Of a stretch of DNA of 10,586 nt, positions 2,742 to 10,181 are shown in pieces; the first letter of the stretch is position 1, and every line of letters begins with the position of its first letter. The DNA lies in contig JAFQVZ010000253.1 in NCBI GenBank assembly GCA_017407765.1, forward strand, positions 1-10,586. Reading direction: 5' to 3'. The DNA is from Clostridia bacterium (GTDB lineage: Bacteria; Bacillota; Clostridia; Oscillospirales; Butyricicoccaceae). The notes under the pieces were generated by a model. The model saw only the letters and a list, made by a program, of their open reading frames with translations. It searched no databases and was not told where the DNA came from. The position numbers and the translations under genes were made by a program.

Positions 2742-4016
2742 ATGAAGAAAAAAAGAACAGTGCCAATGGGAACCTGCCTTATGCTTGTGTTCCTTGCGGT
2801 GGTCACAACAGCAAATATCTGTGTTTTCGGCATGACCGAATTTTACAACAACAAACTGGGAAGCCTTCAGGCCAAGACGGAAGATTACAAGCGTCTTGAA
2901 GAGCTTGTCGGTGTGGTGGATAAGCACTATGTCGGCGAATATGAGTTCGAAGATGCGATGGACGGCATCCTTGCCGGATATATGGCGGGCGTAGGCGACA
3001 AGTGGTCGGGCTATTATACTCAGGAAGAGTATGAGGCTCTGCTCGAAATGAACGAAAACAGTTATGTGGGCATTGGTGTCACGATCTCGACAGAGGAGGC
3101 AAACGGCTATGCCGTAACCGCTGTCACCAACGATTCGCCCGCACAGCAGGCCGGGATCAAGCCCCTTGATGTCATTATCGAGGTAGACGGCGTGTCTACC
3201 GATACATTCGCAAATTATTCCGAGCTTGTAGCTGTGGTCAGAGGTGAAGAGGGAACCGTGGTCAACATCGGCGTTCGCCGCGGCACCGAGATCCTGCACT
3301 TCGATATCACACGTGCAGCTCTCTTTAATCCCGGCGTTGAGGTTGAGATGCTCGGCGAGATCGGCTATGTTTATATTGCCGGTTTTGATAAGAATGTCGA
3401 TGTAGAGTTTGCCGAGAAGGTAAACGGCCTTATCAACGACGGCGCAAAGGCGCTGGTGTTTGATGTAAGGCTCAACGGCGGCGGATATGTGGACGTTATG
3501 AGCAATATGCTCGATCTGCTTCTGCCCGAAGGCACCATCATTACAATGAGCGATAATAAGGGCCAGACCACCGAATATCGTTCGGCCGAAGGCCAGATAG
3601 ATATGCCCATGGTGGTGCTCACCAATGAATATTCAATAAGTGCAGCCGAGTTCTTTGCGGCAGTCCTTCAGGAATACGGCGTTGCAACGGTCGTCGGCGA
3701 CAAGACCACAGGCAAGGGTTATGCACAGACTCTGATCCCCCTTACTGAGGGTGCCGTCAATCTGTCGACACTTAAGTATTATACCCCCAAGGGCGTAAGT
3801 CTTGCCAATGTCGGCATTACACCGGATATTGAAATAAGCCTTTCCGAAGAAGCGCTTTATAACTTCTACACACTGGCTCCCGAGGAGGATGCCCAGCTCA
3901 TGAAGGCTGTTGAGCTGCTCAAGGACGAGCTTGGCATTGTCGACGAGCCCGTCAATGACATTCCTGCTGAGGGCGAAGAGATAACAGGCGATGAGGATCA
4001 GCCTGCCGACGAATAA
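2742..4016 (+). CDS. S41 family carboxy-terminal processing protease (CtpA/CtpB type)
   Basis: This is a predicted extracytoplasmic serine protease of the Prc/CtpA family, anchored by an N-terminal hydrophobic segment (about residues 9-30, after MKKKR). A helical N-terminal region and a PDZ domain (about 105-185, with YVGIGV and the DSPAQQAGIKPLDVIIEVDG stretch) precede the S41 core (about 200-370). The likely dyad is Ser300 in NEYSISAAE and Lys325 in TTGKG. Their 25-residue spacing equals that of Ser430/Lys455 in E. coli Prc. The strand motif reads DVRLNGGGY where DLRNNPGG is usual. The C-terminus is a strongly acidic tail of about 25 residues. The gene starts 18 bases after the M23 gene, with only a weak AGGCGG ribosome binding site (2725-2730), so it probably belongs to the same operon. 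The substrate is unknown. The neighbouring hydrolase or another wall enzyme is an inference from context. Confidence 0.9.
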   Translation: MKKKRTVPMGTCLMLVFLAVVTTANICVFGMTEFYNNKLGSLQAKTEDYKRLEELVGVVDKHYVGEYEFEDAMDGILAGYMAGVGDKWSGYYTQEEYEALLEMNENSYVGIGVTISTEEANGYAVTAVTNDSPAQQAGIKPLDVIIEVDGVSTDTFANYSELVAVVRGEEGTVVNIGVRRGTEILHFDITRAALFNPGVEVEMLGEIGYVYIAGFDKNVDVEFAEKVNGLINDGAKALVFDVRLNGGGYVDVMSNMLDLLLPEGTIITMSDNKGQTTEYRSAEGQIDMPMVVLTNEYSISAAEFFAAVLQEYGVATVVGDKTTGKGYAQTLIPLTEGAVNLSTLKYYTPKGVSLANVGITPDIEISLSEEALYNFYTLAPEEDAQLMKAVELLKDELGIVDEPVNDIPAEGEEITGDEDQPADE

Positions 4017-4032
4017 AAATTATATATTTGCT

Positions 4033-4080
4033 TGCTTCAGGCAGGGAAGAGAAAGGATTTTCTCTACCTGCCTTTAAGCA
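4033..4080 (+). terminator. Imperfect hairpin after the ftsEX-M23-S41 operon
   Basis: The inverted repeat has arms AGGCAGG...AGAGAAA (4039-4054) and TTTCTCT...CCTGCCT (4059-4073), separated by a GGAT loop and with a small internal asymmetry. It can be extended outward by TGCTT/AAGCA (4033-4037 with 4076-4080). The position, 16 bases after the S41 stop and before a strong promoter, fits a transcription end. There is no good U-tract after the stem (only TTT inside its 3' side), so it may be a weak or factor-assisted terminator, or an RNA-stabilising structure. Confidence 0.5.
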
Positions 4081-4098
4081 TAAGTTGGGGCAGTGTTC

Positions 4099-4127
4099 TT
4101 GACAGATAATTGCCTTCATAATATAAT
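4099..4127 (+). promoter_or_regulatory. Perfect-consensus sigma-A promoter for the greA-greA-lysS operon
   Basis: TTGACA (4099-4104) and TATAAT (4122-4127) are separated by exactly 17 bases, both boxes matching the housekeeping consensus at every position. Transcription would start near 4134, leaving a leader of about 40 bases before the first greA-like gene. No second promoter is seen between the three genes, so this promoter probably drives all of them, including lysS. Confidence 0.85.
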
Positions 4128-4140
4128 AAATCGAATGTGG

Positions 4141-4414
4141 ATATTAAAATCCGGTACGGGAGCGAGAGCTTATAATGCAGAAACCCATGAAGATGACCCT
4201 TGCGACTCTGAAGGCTCTCAAGGATGAGCTGGAATATCGCAGAACAGTAGAGCGGTACGAAGCCGAAGAAGAGCTCAGGCTGGCAAGAAGTTATGGCAAC
4301 CTTTCGGAAAATGCCGAATACGATGCAGCCAAGGAATGGATAATGGATATTGAGCATCGCATTGCTGAGCTGGAAGCTTTTATTGCAAATGCGGTTATAA
4401 TCGAAGCACCCGTC
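4141..4414 (+). repeat. Tandem duplication unit, copy 1 (leader plus truncated greA)
   Basis: This stretch is the first copy of a degenerate direct repeat whose second copy is 4456-4726. The 25 bases at 4141-4165 match 4456-4480 at 19 positions, including a shared ATTAAAAT block and a shared GGAGCGA. The proteins then align without gaps over their first 80 residues with 47 identities. The similarity therefore extends into the untranslated leader, which indicates tandem duplication of leader plus gene rather than separate recruitment of two gre genes. Copy 1 has three extra bases between GGAGCGA and the ATG. Confidence 0.8.
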
Positions 4415-4453
4415 GATACAGAAACAATTGTTGATGATAAAAACAACAGATAA
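4175..4453 (+). CDS. Truncated GreA paralogue: coiled-coil domain only, with D-to-N change at the catalytic tip
   Basis: The 92-residue product aligns without gaps to residues 1-80 of the adjacent full-length GreA (47 identical), then ends about 12 residues later at the point where the interdomain linker would lead into the C-terminal FKBP-like domain. That domain, which holds GreA on RNA polymerase, is absent, and no remnant of it lies in the 33 bases before the next gene. The coiled-coil tip reads YGNLSENAEYD. The first catalytic acid (Asp41 in E. coli GreA) is Asn42, whereas the second (Glu44 there) is kept as Glu45. Residues 54-60 (EWIMDIE) also differ strongly from the partner. The ribosome binding site GGGAG (4158-4162) lies 12 bases from the ATG, longer than for the second copy, so translation may be lower. 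It could be a regulator, decoy or modified cleavage factor. A decaying duplicate is possible, but the frame is intact and the promoter strong. Confidence 0.85.
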   Translation: MQKPMKMTLATLKALKDELEYRRTVERYEAEEELRLARSYGNLSENAEYDAAKEWIMDIEHRIAELEAFIANAVIIEAPVDTETIVDDKNNR

Positions 4454-4455
4454 AT

Positions 4456-4726
4456 AAATTAAAATACAAGACAGGAGCGAACTTAAATGCAGAAAGTTGA
4501 GAAAATGACCCTTGCGACCCTGAATGACCTCAAGGCGGAGCTGGAATATCTCAAGACAGAGCGCAGCGACGAAGTTGCAGAACAGATCAAGATCGCCAGA
4601 GGTTACGGCGACCTTTCGGAGAACAGCGAATACGACGAGGCTAAGAATGAGCAGGGCAAGCTCTATTCCCGCATCGCCGAGCTGGAATACATCATTGCAA
4701 ACGCAGTTATTATCGAAGAGCCTCTT
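4456..4726 (+). repeat. Tandem duplication unit, copy 2 (leader plus 5' part of full greA)
   Basis: This is the second copy of the direct repeat starting at 4141. It covers the short leader with AGGAG (4473-4477) and codons 1-80 of the complete greA. Beyond about residue 85 the two genes no longer resemble one another, because copy 1 ends there. Confidence 0.8.
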
Positions 4727-4960
4727 GGCACAGACACTACTGTCGGCCACGGCAGCAAGGTAGTCATCAAGTTTGATGAAGAAGACGAAGAAGAGGCATA
4801 TACCATCGTAGGTACACGCGAAGTTGATCCTCTTGAGGGCAAGATCTCGGATGCTTCCCCCATCGGCAAGGCCATCGTTGGCAAGGGTGCAGGCGACCGT
4901 TTTGTCGTCGAGGCTCCCAACGGCCACATGGCAGGCGTTATCATTTCGGTCACAAGATAA
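4487..4960 (+). CDS. greA: Transcription elongation factor GreA
   Basis: GreA enters the secondary channel of RNA polymerase and stimulates cleavage of the 3' end of backtracked RNA, rescuing stalled complexes. The 157 residues match the normal family length. The N-terminal coiled coil (about 1-78) carries the tip GDLSENSEYDEAKNEQG with both catalytic acids, Asp42 and Glu45. The C-terminal domain (about 85-157) contains typical segments such as GSKVVIKF, YTIVG, ISDASPIGKAIVGKGAGD and VEAPNG. The start is set by AGGAG at 4473-4477, 9 bases upstream. The gene lies 33 bases after the truncated paralogue and 13 bases before lysS. Linkage of greA to lysS is common in Bacillota and other bacteria, so this copy is the ancestral one. 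Confidence 0.97.
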   Translation: MQKVEKMTLATLNDLKAELEYLKTERSDEVAEQIKIARGYGDLSENSEYDEAKNEQGKLYSRIAELEYIIANAVIIEEPLGTDTTVGHGSKVVIKFDEEDEEEAYTIVGTREVDPLEGKISDASPIGKAIVGKGAGDRFVVEAPNGHMAGVIISVTR

Positions 4961-4973
4961 AAGGAGATAGGAA

Positions 4974-6953
4974 ATGAGCACAGAAGTTGAAAGAAACGAG
5001 CAGCTGGAAGTCTCCGGCGAAGAGCTGAACGAGCTTCTGCAGATCCGCCGCGACAAGCTGTCCAAGCTGCAGAGCGAAGGCAAGGACCCCTTTACCATCA
5101 CAAAGTATGATGTAACAGCATACAGCAAGACAACAAAAGATAACTTCGAGACAATGGAAAACCAGACAGTCTCGATGGCCGGCCGCCTTATGTCGATGCG
5201 TGACATGGGCAAGGCTTCTTTCTGCGACCTGCAGGATAAGGAAGGCCGCATCCAGCTTTATGTCAAGGTCGACGAGCTGGGCGCAGACGGATATGAGCAG
5301 TTCAAGAAGTTCGACATCGGTGACATCGTCGGCATCAAGGGCTTTGTGTTCCGCACACGCCGCGGTGAGATATCCATCCATGTTCAGGAGATCACACTGC
5401 TGAGCAAGTCGCTCAAGCCCCTGCCTGAGAAGTTCCATGGCCTGACAAATGTAGATCAGCGCTATCGTCAGCGTTATGTTGACCTTATCATGAATCCCGA
5501 AAGCCGCGACACATTCATCAAGCGTTCCAAGATCATCGCTTCGATCCGCCGCTTCCTCGATAATAAGGGCTTCCTTGAAGTTGAAACACCCATGCTGGTC
5601 TCCAACGCAGGCGGCGCTGCCGCACGTCCCTTTGAGACACACTTCAATGCTCTCAACGAGGACCGTAAGCTGCGTATCTCCCTCGAGCTGCCTCTTAAGA
5701 GACTTATTGTCGGCGGCCTTGACAGAGTTTATGAGATCGGCCGCGTTTTCCGTAACGAAGGTGTCGACACACGTCATAATCCCGAGTTCACACTGATGGA
5801 GCTCTATCAGGCATACACCGATTATCACGGCATGATGGACCTGACAGAGGAGATGTACCGTCACGTTGCTCAGGAGGTCCTTGGCACAACAACTATCGTA
5901 TTCAATGGCGTAGAGATGGATCTGGGCAAGCCCTTTGCCCGCGTCACAATGCTGGATGCCGTTAAGCAGTATTCCGGTGTAGACTTCAACGAGATCAAGA
6001 GTACCGAAGAGGCACGCGAGGTCGCCAAGGCTCACAAGATCGAGTTTGAAGAGCGTCACAAGAAGGGCGACATTCTTAACCTCTTCTTCGAGCACTATGT
6101 TGAAGAGCATCTGGTCCAGCCCACATTTGTTATGGATCATCCTGTTGAGATCTCTCCCCTTACAAAGAGAAAGCCCGATGCTCCCGACTATGTCGAGCGC
6201 TTCGAGTTCTTTATGAACGGCTGGGAGATGGCAAATGCCTACTCCGAGCTGAACGACCCCATCGACCCGCGCGCACGTTTTGCCGCACAGGAAGAGCAGT
6301 TTGCAGCCGGCGACGACGAGGCAAACCACACAGATGAAGACTTCCTCAATGCTCTTGAGATCGGTATGCCTCCCACGGGCGGCATCGGCTACGGCATTGA
6401 CCGTATGTGCATGCTGTTCACCGACTCGCAGGCGATCCGCGACGTTCTGCTGTTCCCCACAATGAAGACACTGGGCGGCGAGAAGAAGGTCGAGCGTGCC
6501 GCTGCTCCCGCAGCTCAGGCAGCAGAGACAGCCGAGGCTGCTCCCGTTGAGGAAGTTCCCGCAGAGCCCGAAGTTATCGACTTCTCCAAGGTCGAGATCG
6601 AGCCTCTGTTTGCCGACATGGTAGACTTTGAGACATTCTCCAAGTCCGACTTCCGCGCAGTAAAGGTAAAGTCCTGCGAGGCAGTCAAGAAGAGCAAGAA
6701 GCTGCTGCATTTCGTTCTGGATGACGGCACAGGCACCGACCGCGTTATCCTCAGCGGCATCCATGCTTATTATGAGCCCGAAGAGCTGGTAGGCAAGACA
6801 CTGATCGCCATCACAAATCTGCCTCCCAGAGCTATGATGGGCATCGATTCCTGCGGTATGCTGCTCAGCGCCATCCACACAGAGGAAGGCGAAGAGAAGC
6901 TCCACCTGCTGATGGTCGACGACCACATCCCCGCAGGCGCAAAGCTCTATTAA
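4974..6953 (+). CDS. lysS: Lysyl-tRNA synthetase (class II) with fused C-terminal tRNA-binding domain
   Basis: It charges tRNA-Lys with lysine using ATP in the cytoplasm. Of 659 residues, about the first 500 are a standard bacterial class II LysRS: an OB-fold anticodon-binding domain (about 66-145), motif 2 around FRNEGVDTRHNPEFT (259-273) and motif 3 with GGIGYGIDRMCMLF (469-482) followed by RDVLLFPTMK. An Ala/Glu/Pro-rich linker (about 505-540) then leads to a Trbp111/Arc1p-type tRNA-binding domain (about 548-659), recognised by SDFRAVKV, LDDGTGTDR, VILSGI, YYEPEELVGKT and NLPPRAMMGIDSCGMLLSA. That domain is most familiar at the C-terminus of MetRS. LysRS without it is about 490-510 residues. 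The start has a strong AAGGAGA site (4961-4967). Only 13 bases separate it from greA, so there is no room for a T-box leader. Its codon choice is very uniform, suggesting high expression. Confidence 0.97.
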   Translation: MSTEVERNEQLEVSGEELNELLQIRRDKLSKLQSEGKDPFTITKYDVTAYSKTTKDNFETMENQTVSMAGRLMSMRDMGKASFCDLQDKEGRIQLYVKVDELGADGYEQFKKFDIGDIVGIKGFVFRTRRGEISIHVQEITLLSKSLKPLPEKFHGLTNVDQRYRQRYVDLIMNPESRDTFIKRSKIIASIRRFLDNKGFLEVETPMLVSNAGGAAARPFETHFNALNEDRKLRISLELPLKRLIVGGLDRVYEIGRVFRNEGVDTRHNPEFTLMELYQAYTDYHGMMDLTEEMYRHVAQEVLGTTTIVFNGVEMDLGKPFARVTMLDAVKQYSGVDFNEIKSTEEAREVAKAHKIEFEERHKKGDILNLFFEHYVEEHLVQPTFVMDHPVEISPLTKRKPDAPDYVERFEFFMNGWEMANAYSELNDPIDPRARFAAQEEQFAAGDDEANHTDEDFLNALEIGMPPTGGIGYGIDRMCMLFTDSQAIRDVLLFPTMKTLGGEKKVERAAAPAAQAAETAEAAPVEEVPAEPEVIDFSKVEIEPLFADMVDFETFSKSDFRAVKVKSCEAVKKSKKLLHFVLDDGTGTDRVILSGIHAYYEPEELVGKTLIAITNLPPRAMMGIDSCGMLLSAIHTEEGEEKLHLLMVDDHIPAGAKLY

Positions 6954-7035: not shown

Positions 7036-7260
7036 ATGAAAAATACAAATAAATGTCCCAAGTGCGGAAGCAGTGATATAGTCAGATTTGACGGTTATGC
7101 GGGGGCCCATGGCGCGGGCAACAACATCATGGTGGGTATGACTGTGTTTTCGGCAGTCAATGTCAACCGATACATCTGCTGCAGCTGCGGATATACCGAA
7201 GAATGGATAGATAAAGAAGATATCGAAAAGGTAAAACACAGCAGAAAGGCAATAAGATGA
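7036..7260 (+). CDS. Small zinc-ribbon protein of unknown function
   Basis: The product has 74 residues with two CxxC knuckles: Cys7-Pro-Lys-Cys10 at the N-terminus and Cys48-Cys-Ser-Cys51 near the middle. The pattern is that of a zinc ribbon binding one Zn. The region between is glycine-rich (GYAGAHGAGNN) and then moderately hydrophobic (IMVGMTVFSAVNVNRYI). The C-terminus, from about residue 55, is charged and likely helical (EEWIDKEDIEKVK). No signal peptide is seen, so it is probably cytoplasmic. The strong AAGGAGGAGG at 7021-7030 fixes the start. The stop overlaps the next gene's start in an ATGA arrangement, suggesting the two proteins are made together. I do not recognise a specific family beyond the zinc ribbon, and a nucleic-acid or protein-binding role is only possible, not shown. 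Confidence 0.8.
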   Translation: MKNTNKCPKCGSSDIVRFDGYAGAHGAGNNIMVGMTVFSAVNVNRYICCSCGYTEEWIDKEDIEKVKHSRKAIR

Positions 7261-7916
7261 GCAGGAAAAAATCGTTTGGATTTATGTGGGTGCCCATTGG
7301 ACTTGTCCTTATATGTTTTGTGTCGGGAATTGCCCTTTTGTGGCTGGGCATAGACCGAAAAGCAGAGCTTGACGCCAGAATAAAAGGCTATACACAGGCA
7401 GAAGGTTATTTTGCAGATGTCGAGATCTACAATGTCGATAAAGACGGGAAGGTTACGTATACACTTTTATATTCATTCGAGGCAGATGGAAAAGAATATA
7501 CGGCGCGCACCGACTTCGGCACGGAGGCTGTGCCCGATATCGGATATGCAAACACGGTTTATTATGATCCTGATGAACCGGCAAACAATGTTGTGGGTGA
7601 GGTGAGAGGACCCGAGATGACCATAGCCATGGGAATCTTTTTTATTCTCGGCTCGTCGGTGTTTATATTTATAGGTCTTTCGGTATGGGGTCTTTTTGAT
7701 AAATGCAGCTTCAATATGACCGATATTTTCATCGGATTCGTGGTGCTTATTATGGGTATGGGAGGCATTTATATCATAACGGAAGGGTTTTCGCTGAGAG
7801 TGCTGTTTATGCTGGCAGGACCTTTCGGGATCATTCCGGTTTTGTTTATGCTTATGGGTGTGCATCTTATATGCAGAGGTGTTTTTCACAAAAACCAAAA
7901 GGGGAGAAAACAATAA
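7257..7916 (+). CDS. DUF3592-like membrane protein
   Basis: The protein has 219 residues and four predicted membrane segments: TM1 at about 9-31, then a soluble extracytoplasmic or cytoplasmic domain at about 32-118, TM2 at about 120-145, TM3 at about 154-176 and TM4 at about 181-208, with a basic tail HKNQKGRKQ. The soluble part has the strand-rich pattern of DUF3592 proteins, including TYTLLYSFEADGKEYTAR, a GTEAVPDIG turn and the VYYDPDEPANNVV end. The molecular role of that family is not established. The gene overlaps the zinc-ribbon gene by 4 bases (ATGA) and probably depends on its translation, having only a weak AAAGG nearby (7245-7249). Its bases are more A/T-rich and codon use less biased than in lysS, suggesting modest expression. 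The family assignment rests on pattern recognition of the soluble domain. Confidence 0.8.
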   Translation: MSRKKSFGFMWVPIGLVLICFVSGIALLWLGIDRKAELDARIKGYTQAEGYFADVEIYNVDKDGKVTYTLLYSFEADGKEYTARTDFGTEAVPDIGYANTVYYDPDEPANNVVGEVRGPEMTIAMGIFFILGSSVFIFIGLSVWGLFDKCSFNMTDIFIGFVVLIMGMGGIYIITEGFSLRVLFMLAGPFGIIPVLFMLMGVHLICRGVFHKNQKGRKQ

Positions 7917-9416: not shown

Positions 9417-10181
9417 GTGAATAACTGGTTTACTGTAGAACAGATAGATAAAGATACCTATGCCATAAGTGAATATGGTCATTGGGAAGAGCCGCACTCG
9501 TATCTGCTGCTGGGGGAAGAACAGGCGGTCATTATAGACACCGGCCTGGGAGTGGCTGACATCAGAAAAGAAGCTGAAGAAATAACCGGCCTGCCAATTT
9601 CGGCAGTTACCACCCATGTCCATTGGGATCATATCGGAGGTCATGGGCTGTTTGACAGCTTTGCTGTGCATGAAAACGAGATCTCGTGGATAAACGGAGG
9701 TTTTCCTCTCCCGCTAAGTATGGTCAGGCGCGATCTTGCGCGGCCGCCCCGAGGCCTGCCTGAAGGCTTTGATGAAAACACATATAAAGTGTTTCAGGGC
9801 GAGCCTTCGCGCATCCTCAGAGATGGGGACATTGTTGATCTTGGCGGCAGACAGCTCAGAGTTATCCATACGCCGGGTCATTCACCGGGACACTGCTGTT
9901 TTTATGAAGAGGCGAGAGGGTATCTTTATTCGGGAGATATTGCATATATGGGGTGTCTTTATGCCTTCTATCCCTCTACCGATCCCAAGGCATTTTATCA
10001 GTCGATAAAGAAGCTTGAGGGCCTCGAGATAACTAAGATCCTTCCCGGTCATCATTCACTTGTGGTGTCAAATAGTATTATATGCGATATTTCAAAAGGA
10101 TTTGCCATGATAGAGCAAAACGGAGGCCTTGCTCAGGGCAGGGGAGAGTTCGATTTCGGCTGCTTTAAGATACATATCTGA
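9417..10181 (+). CDS. MBL-fold metallohydrolase (glyoxalase II-like), GTG start
   Basis: The 254-residue cytoplasmic protein has the metallo-beta-lactamase fold and full metal-binding set. Visible residues are His67, His69, Asp71 and His72 in THVHWDHIGGH, His155 in HTPGHSPGH, Asp174 in SGDIAY and His212 in LPGHH, giving a probable two-metal site. An early strand ends VIIDTGLG, also typical. The Gly-His-rich second motif and the overall length resemble glyoxalase II-like hydrolases, but the substrate cannot be read from sequence. The start is GTG at 9417, supported by AGGGAGGG (9404-9411) 5 bases upstream and by the absence of a nearby in-frame ATG. It appears to be a single-gene unit, with its own promoter at 9376-9384 and argG's promoter downstream. 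No clear terminator follows it. Confidence 0.92.
   Translation: MNNWFTVEQIDKDTYAISEYGHWEEPHSYLLLGEEQAVIIDTGLGVADIRKEAEEITGLPISAVTTHVHWDHIGGHGLFDSFAVHENEISWINGGFPLPLSMVRRDLARPPRGLPEGFDENTYKVFQGEPSRILRDGDIVDLGGRQLRVIHTPGHSPGHCCFYEEARGYLYSGDIAYMGCLYAFYPSTDPKAFYQSIKKLEGLEITKILPGHHSLVVSNSIICDISKGFAMIEQNGGLAQGRGEFDFGCFKIHI

Follow-up and report, generated by a model that had tools for sequence, protein, structure and literature searches.

A short greA-like reading frame ahead of greA in a clostridial genome is probably a drifting partial duplicate with asparagine at the catalytic tip

What is a gene for the N-terminal coiled coil of GreA, with asparagine in place of the catalytic aspartate, doing directly ahead of a complete greA? 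The arrangement lies in a 10,586-nucleotide stretch of DNA, analysed whole and called the window here, from a clostridial draft genome (assembly GCA_017407765.1, contig JAFQVZ010000253.1; 1.76 Mb in 378 contigs, 83% complete). On the + strand of the window, a gene for an S41 peptidase (positions 2742-4016) is followed by the short ORF (4175-4453), greA (4487-4960) and lysS (4974-6953). Our preferred answer, to which we assign a probability of roughly 0.6, is that the short ORF is a young partial duplicate of greA that is cleavage-dead, drifting, and of little or no effect of its own.

The 92-residue product of the short ORF is identical to GreA at 47 of the first 80 residues, and at 50 of the first 86, in a gap-free alignment (BLASTP E 2e-29), so the likeness of the two proteins is not due to chance; the colinearity claimed in a preliminary description of this DNA is thereby borne out. 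Pfam reports one family in the short protein, GreA_GreB_N (PF03449; residues 6-75, E 1.3e-20, 73.7 bits against a cut-off of 24.5), and no DksA/TraR-type domain was found in it at E 0.001. The neighbouring greA product (157 residues, full length, Asp42 and Glu45 intact) carries both GreA_GreB_N and GreA_GreB, and is the sole match to PF01272 in this 83% complete assembly. As first described, the short protein consists of the N-terminal coiled coil with no C-terminal domain; it scores below the NCBIfam GreA cut-offs (NF001263/TIGR01462). At codon 42 the short ORF reads AAC (Asn; 4298-4300, + strand) where greA reads GAC (Asp; 4610-4612), and the asparagine aligns with D41 of E. coli GreA (PDB 1grj). 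Glu45 and the flanking LSEN/EYD are retained, again in agreement with the earlier account, leaving Asn42 and Glu45 in place of the acidic Asp and Glu pair.

The start codons of the short ORF and greA are 312 bases apart, a period that spans both the leader and the N-terminal domain, and the two leaders can be aligned with each other (shuffle p 0.0055). The leader and ribosome-binding region of the short ORF (GGGAGCGA; 4128-4174, + strand) is thus related to that of greA, which lies in the 33-base gap between the two frames (4454-4486, + strand), includes a ribosome-binding site of its own (AGGAGCGA), and is closest to the leaders of three genus mates (G004, G005 and G006). Ahead of the short ORF, at 4099-4127 on the + strand, stands a sigma-70-type promoter (TTGACA-17-TATAAT) that matches 12 of 12 consensus bases, and promoters of the greA kind start 77-92 bases before greA in all six genus mates. 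Because the 5' leader was duplicated too, a greA-type promoter now stands in front of the short ORF, which makes co-expression with greA plausible; the promoter appears to be greA's own, inherited one. Most simply, a tandem duplication copied leader and N-terminal domain downstream of this promoter, with the full-length greA as the relative from which the duplicate stems. A protein tree joins the short protein to GreA of this species, though the support for this pairing (84/81) falls short of decisive.

The gene neighbourhood shows further features. The lysS product, LysRS (window 4974-6953), has a tRNA_bind domain at its C terminus (PF01588, residues 561-657), similar to that of MetRS/CsaA. 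G004, G005 and G006 each carry, on the greA contig and some 2 kb from greA, an open frame of 659-674 residues that matches PF01588; there is no such match on the greA contigs of G001 and G002, and greA of G003 is too near a contig end to tell. Between greA and the apparent end of the S41 peptidase gene, as judged by eye, G001, G002 and G004 also have an additional open frame that measures 268-322 codons from stop to stop, and window positions 4017-4174 hold no counterpart of it. Two adjoining small genes occupy 7036-7916 of the window, encoding products of 74 residues (a below-cut-off Lar_restr_allev match) and 219 residues (a DUF3592 match).

No second greA copy occurs in any of the six genus mates. 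Searches of 98 further genomes, drawn from the genus, family and order, gave a match at E 0.001 or better in 95, in open frames of at least 152 residues except in one genome (G064), whose 81-residue frame is a greA that stops at the contig end. The preliminary description had looked to other genomes for the same short gene; barring that cut greA, no second short greA-like copy was found in the 98 relatives searched, including the six of the genus. A near-identical counterpart is instead a record, P0001, in a database of proteins from public genomes and metagenomes. It has 92 residues and an intact frame like that of the window, is 98% identical to the window's protein, and differs from it at residues 34 and 51, which are conserved sites of GreA; its 90% cluster has seven members, the window's own perhaps among them. 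A further record, P0002, is a fragment without the first part of the frame and looks broken. Its contig has a length of 1464, which the contig of P0042 shares; P0042 is a greA copy whose sequence passes into GreA-unlike residues. From this shared size we infer that both probably stem from one poor contig. The earlier concern that the gene might be broken in close relatives thus comes down to one doubtful record beside an intact one, and the short gene is probably real. Our searches found it in no other species, and the signs of a broken copy amount to one weak case.

We compared the short protein with 29 relatives, the best-scoring of the 95 genomes with a match. The tip has both Asp and Glu in all 29, and in 259 of 262 fetched proteins, the exceptions being P0001 and P0002 (Asn) and P0050 (Ala). 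This last protein, a 157-residue GreA relative with alanine for the catalytic aspartate (GALSEN), is the sole tip variant among the 262 besides P0001 and P0002. A search of 391 genomes of the class for the DNA-encoded pattern G-N-L/F-x-E-N-x-E-Y, which misses tips with other neighbours, matched four genomes, one of them the window's; the other three matches lie, by eye, in GreA-unlike proteins. Judged by this pattern the Asp-to-Asn tip is rare, with no other GreA-like match in the 391 genomes. A family search over the same genomes covered the best matches, below which short copies could still rank, and a pattern scan of genome contigs confirmed none of 584 matches.

Stand-alone Gre N-terminal domains were also sought by length. 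The length-limited search returned 2216 short relatives, and the 17 of these that were inspected appear to be truncated or frameshifted GreA with both Asp and Glu kept, including P0242 (93 residues, longest contig 582 kb). Matches in mobile elements were few: five of 50,697 phage records, all unannotated and one covering 92% of the query, and 10 of 72,556 plasmid records, four annotated as greA and six with no listed gene. The sole match among viral contigs (L040) was set aside by eye as an unrelated protein sharing a short motif. Titles and abstract openings of the Gre literature, among the matches listed, mention no natural stand-alone Gre coiled coil.

A closer view of the sequence goes beyond the preliminary description, which mentioned neither the duplicated 5' leader nor the extent of change at conserved residues. 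Forty-two positions are at least 90% conserved in the 29 relatives. This species' GreA keeps all 42 and the short protein 27, and in a leave-one-out comparison no relative misses more than five. The Asp-to-Asn substitution does not stand alone; the losses at conserved positions number 15 in all. Many of the 15 sit in two blocks on the + strand, residues 22-35 (4238-4279; 3 of 14 residues identical to GreA) and residues 54-61 (4334-4357; 0 of 8 residues and 5 of 24 bases identical), which make up the middle of the hairpin. The changes are clustered (adjacent-change permutation p 0.012), and the base and tip of the hairpin are better kept than its middle, with block boundaries that were chosen after seeing the data. 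Compensated frameshifts were considered as an origin of the two blocks. Over codons 51-61 this was rejected, since the gapped alignment did not beat shuffles (p 0.33 against greA, 0.22 against G006). Over codons 22-36 the gapped alignment did so (p 0.0004 against greA, 0.025 against G006), but greA is matched positively without gaps as well, and a frameshift there is no more than possible.

Retention of GreA residues in the short protein is similar at conserved (27 of 42) and variable positions (19 of 36; p 0.36), whereas five relatives tested in the same way protect their conserved positions (p 0.019 to 4e-8). Tip residues 36-53 are retained at 13 of 18 positions versus 33 of 60 for the rest (p 0.28). 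The preliminary view that selection had kept the shape of the tip is not supported by these comparisons; its other half, a loss of normal cleavage, is what published mutants, described below, lead one to expect.

Rates of change tell of weakened constraint. The end branch of the protein tree is 1.71 for the short protein versus 0.05 for GreA. In a codon model of 80 codons, omega was 0.355 on the short branch versus 0.031 for the rest (log-likelihoods -1365.81 free, -1374.41 equal and -1367.35 with omega 1); equality with the background is rejected, and p for omega = 1, calculated by hand from the log-likelihoods, is 0.08. Three topologies on 77 codons gave 0.37, 0.45 and 0.50 versus 0.024-0.026, with equality again rejected (p 2e-4 or less) and p for omega = 1 of 0.11, 0.23 and 0.35. 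When the two blocks were removed (54 codons), omega became unstable (0.20, 2.1 and 48.6), with p of 0.002-0.03 for background equality and 0.21-0.90 for omega = 1. Pairwise omega between the short ORF and greA, into which greA's own constrained branch is mixed, was 0.27 (NG86) and 0.40 (ML) over all codons, and 0.14 (NG86), 0.37 (YN00) and 0.24 (ML) without the blocks. Constraint on the short ORF is strongly relaxed relative to greA. As to the check for a dN/dS below 1 that had been proposed, the branch estimates over all codons (0.355-0.50) are lower than 1 but not distinguishable from it.

Codon choice differs between the copies as well. For six amino acids, C- and T-ending codons stand at 6:16 in the short ORF versus 15:6 in the N-terminal domain of greA (p 0.006). 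Because other genes of the window also lean towards T (21:51 in the gene at 9417-10181, 46:59 in the S41 peptidase gene), the ratio is not abnormal for the window and is unlike only greA and lysS. In simulations of neutral substitution alone, which left out indels and let a stop arise and revert on the way, 86 codons ended stop-free with a probability of 0.19 at 0.2 changes per site, 0.09 at 0.375, 0.06 at 0.5 and 0.04 at 0.97.

Together, the relaxed evolution and the one-species range in our searches make a drifting duplicate with little effect the most likely reading. A partial tandem duplication of leader and N-terminal domain would have arisen within the lineage of this species, immediately behind the greA promoter, and the short ORF is probably still transcribed with greA and perhaps weakly translated. 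Its product, if made, would be a coiled-coil fragment that, without Asp42, could not stimulate RNA cleavage, and that would be poorly held on RNA polymerase, having no C-terminal domain and having lost many family-conserved residues. Asn42, the missing C-terminal domain and the published Gre mutants together lead us to expect a cleavage-dead, weakly bound protein with little function, whose gene most likely drifts under strongly relaxed selection. Several observations pull against drift: the 92-codon frame is intact, for which the neutral probability is 0.04-0.19; P0001 is of the same length and belongs to the cluster of seven that perhaps includes the window's own protein; all-codon omega estimates lie below 1, as do the pairwise values without the blocks (0.14-0.37, greA's branch included); and the changes are clustered, not spread. 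In addition, R27 and E60 of the short protein match the positions of R26-E59, a salt bridge in E. coli GreA (PMC7527559) that is absent from this species' GreA, which has Ser and Tyr there. If the short ORF is a drifting duplicate, it offers a clean snapshot of the beginning of a Gre paralog, with the catalytic residue gone and the frame still open.

The alternative that survives best, although we consider it unlikely, is that of a cleavage-dead competitor: the fragment would enter the secondary channel and displace GreA or slow elongation, in a ratio to GreA set by co-transcription. Such a role is conceivable because co-transcription from the greA-type promoter ahead of the short ORF could supply the quantity and because related natural antagonists exist, namely the inhibitory Gre paralogs Gfh1 and Rv3788 (PMC4598747) and TFS4, an archaeal cleavage-factor paralog turned inhibitor (PMC5715097). 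According to PMC3078854, the E. coli greA alleles D41N and E44K were isolated as suppressors and their effects on recombination exceed those of a greA deletion, and mutants at D41/E44 generally lose cleavage, not binding to RNA polymerase; the D43N form of MtbGre lost activity completely (PMC3132773). By analogy with these mutants, the short protein likely lacks cleavage activity under either reading. Against competition, plasmid-borne D41N and E44K greA gave no suppressor phenotype in wild type in the same study (PMC3078854), although growth was slower. In PMC7527559, full-length D41A/E44Y GreA is described as harmful in E. coli and overexpression of the N-terminal domain alone as non-lethal, and specific binding seems to need both domains. 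The short protein has no C-terminal domain, has lost conserved coiled-coil residues, and has a dN/dS not confidently below 1.

We give somewhat less credence to a fuller version of this idea, a natural stand-alone, cleavage-dead Gre coiled coil, co-transcribed from greA's promoter, that has lost its C-terminal anchor and had its hairpin middle rebuilt so as to act as a brake or antagonist in the secondary channel. If functional, the short protein would be an unusually small natural Gre-type secondary-channel factor, and a bacterial parallel to TFS4 in which a catalytic factor was made an antagonist by point change and domain loss.

About as doubtful, or slightly more so, is an effect exerted through expression, not through the protein, with a translated leader cistron between promoter and greA altering greA output. 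The short ORF does separate greA from the promoter, and greA retains its own ribosome-binding site in the 33-base gap. On the other hand, the window has no Rfam match at gathering scores, and the two terminator-like sites within 3900-5100 are both on the - strand.

It is improbable that the coiled coil has been repurposed for a new partner, with the rebuilt residues 22-35 and 54-61, expected to lie opposite one another in a hairpin of the Gre type, forming a new interface. The clustering of changes is in keeping with this, and I56, I59 and the R27/E60 pair are compatible with a coiled coil, with core positions assigned by eye; yet the blocks were picked after the data had been seen, and L22R and V30A are poor changes for a coiled-coil core. 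An assembly artefact of the fragmented draft genome (378 contigs, 83% complete) is hardly credible, for the two copies share 68% of bases over 258, which mis-assembly of one gene would not give, and P0001, although it may share source data with the window, argues against pure assembly error in being 92 residues long with two differing residues.

Set beside known systems, the short protein resembles full-length GreA in its colinear N-terminal coiled coil, its LSEN/EYD tip loop and Glu45, and it is identical to E. coli GreA at 29 of 74 aligned residues, the same number that GreA of this species reaches; it differs in having no C-terminal domain, asparagine for the catalytic aspartate, and 15 of 42 conserved positions lost. 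To our knowledge, TFS4 is not homologous to Gre. Like the short protein, TFS4 of Sulfolobus is a cleavage-factor paralog with catalytic acids lost, but it is archaeal, with zinc-ribbon domains and proven inhibitory activity. Gfh1 of Thermus and Rv3788 of M. tuberculosis are Gre paralogs without cleavage stimulation, a property that is predicted for the short protein; unlike it, they have a C-terminal domain and keep acidic tip residues. Two E. coli variants also resemble it: the engineered GreA N-terminal domain, ended by a stop after codon 75 and nearly the same fragment, and the D41N mutant, in which GAC likewise became AAC. The E. coli fragment and D41N are a separate laboratory construct and mutant, whereas here both are united in one natural gene, with further changes.
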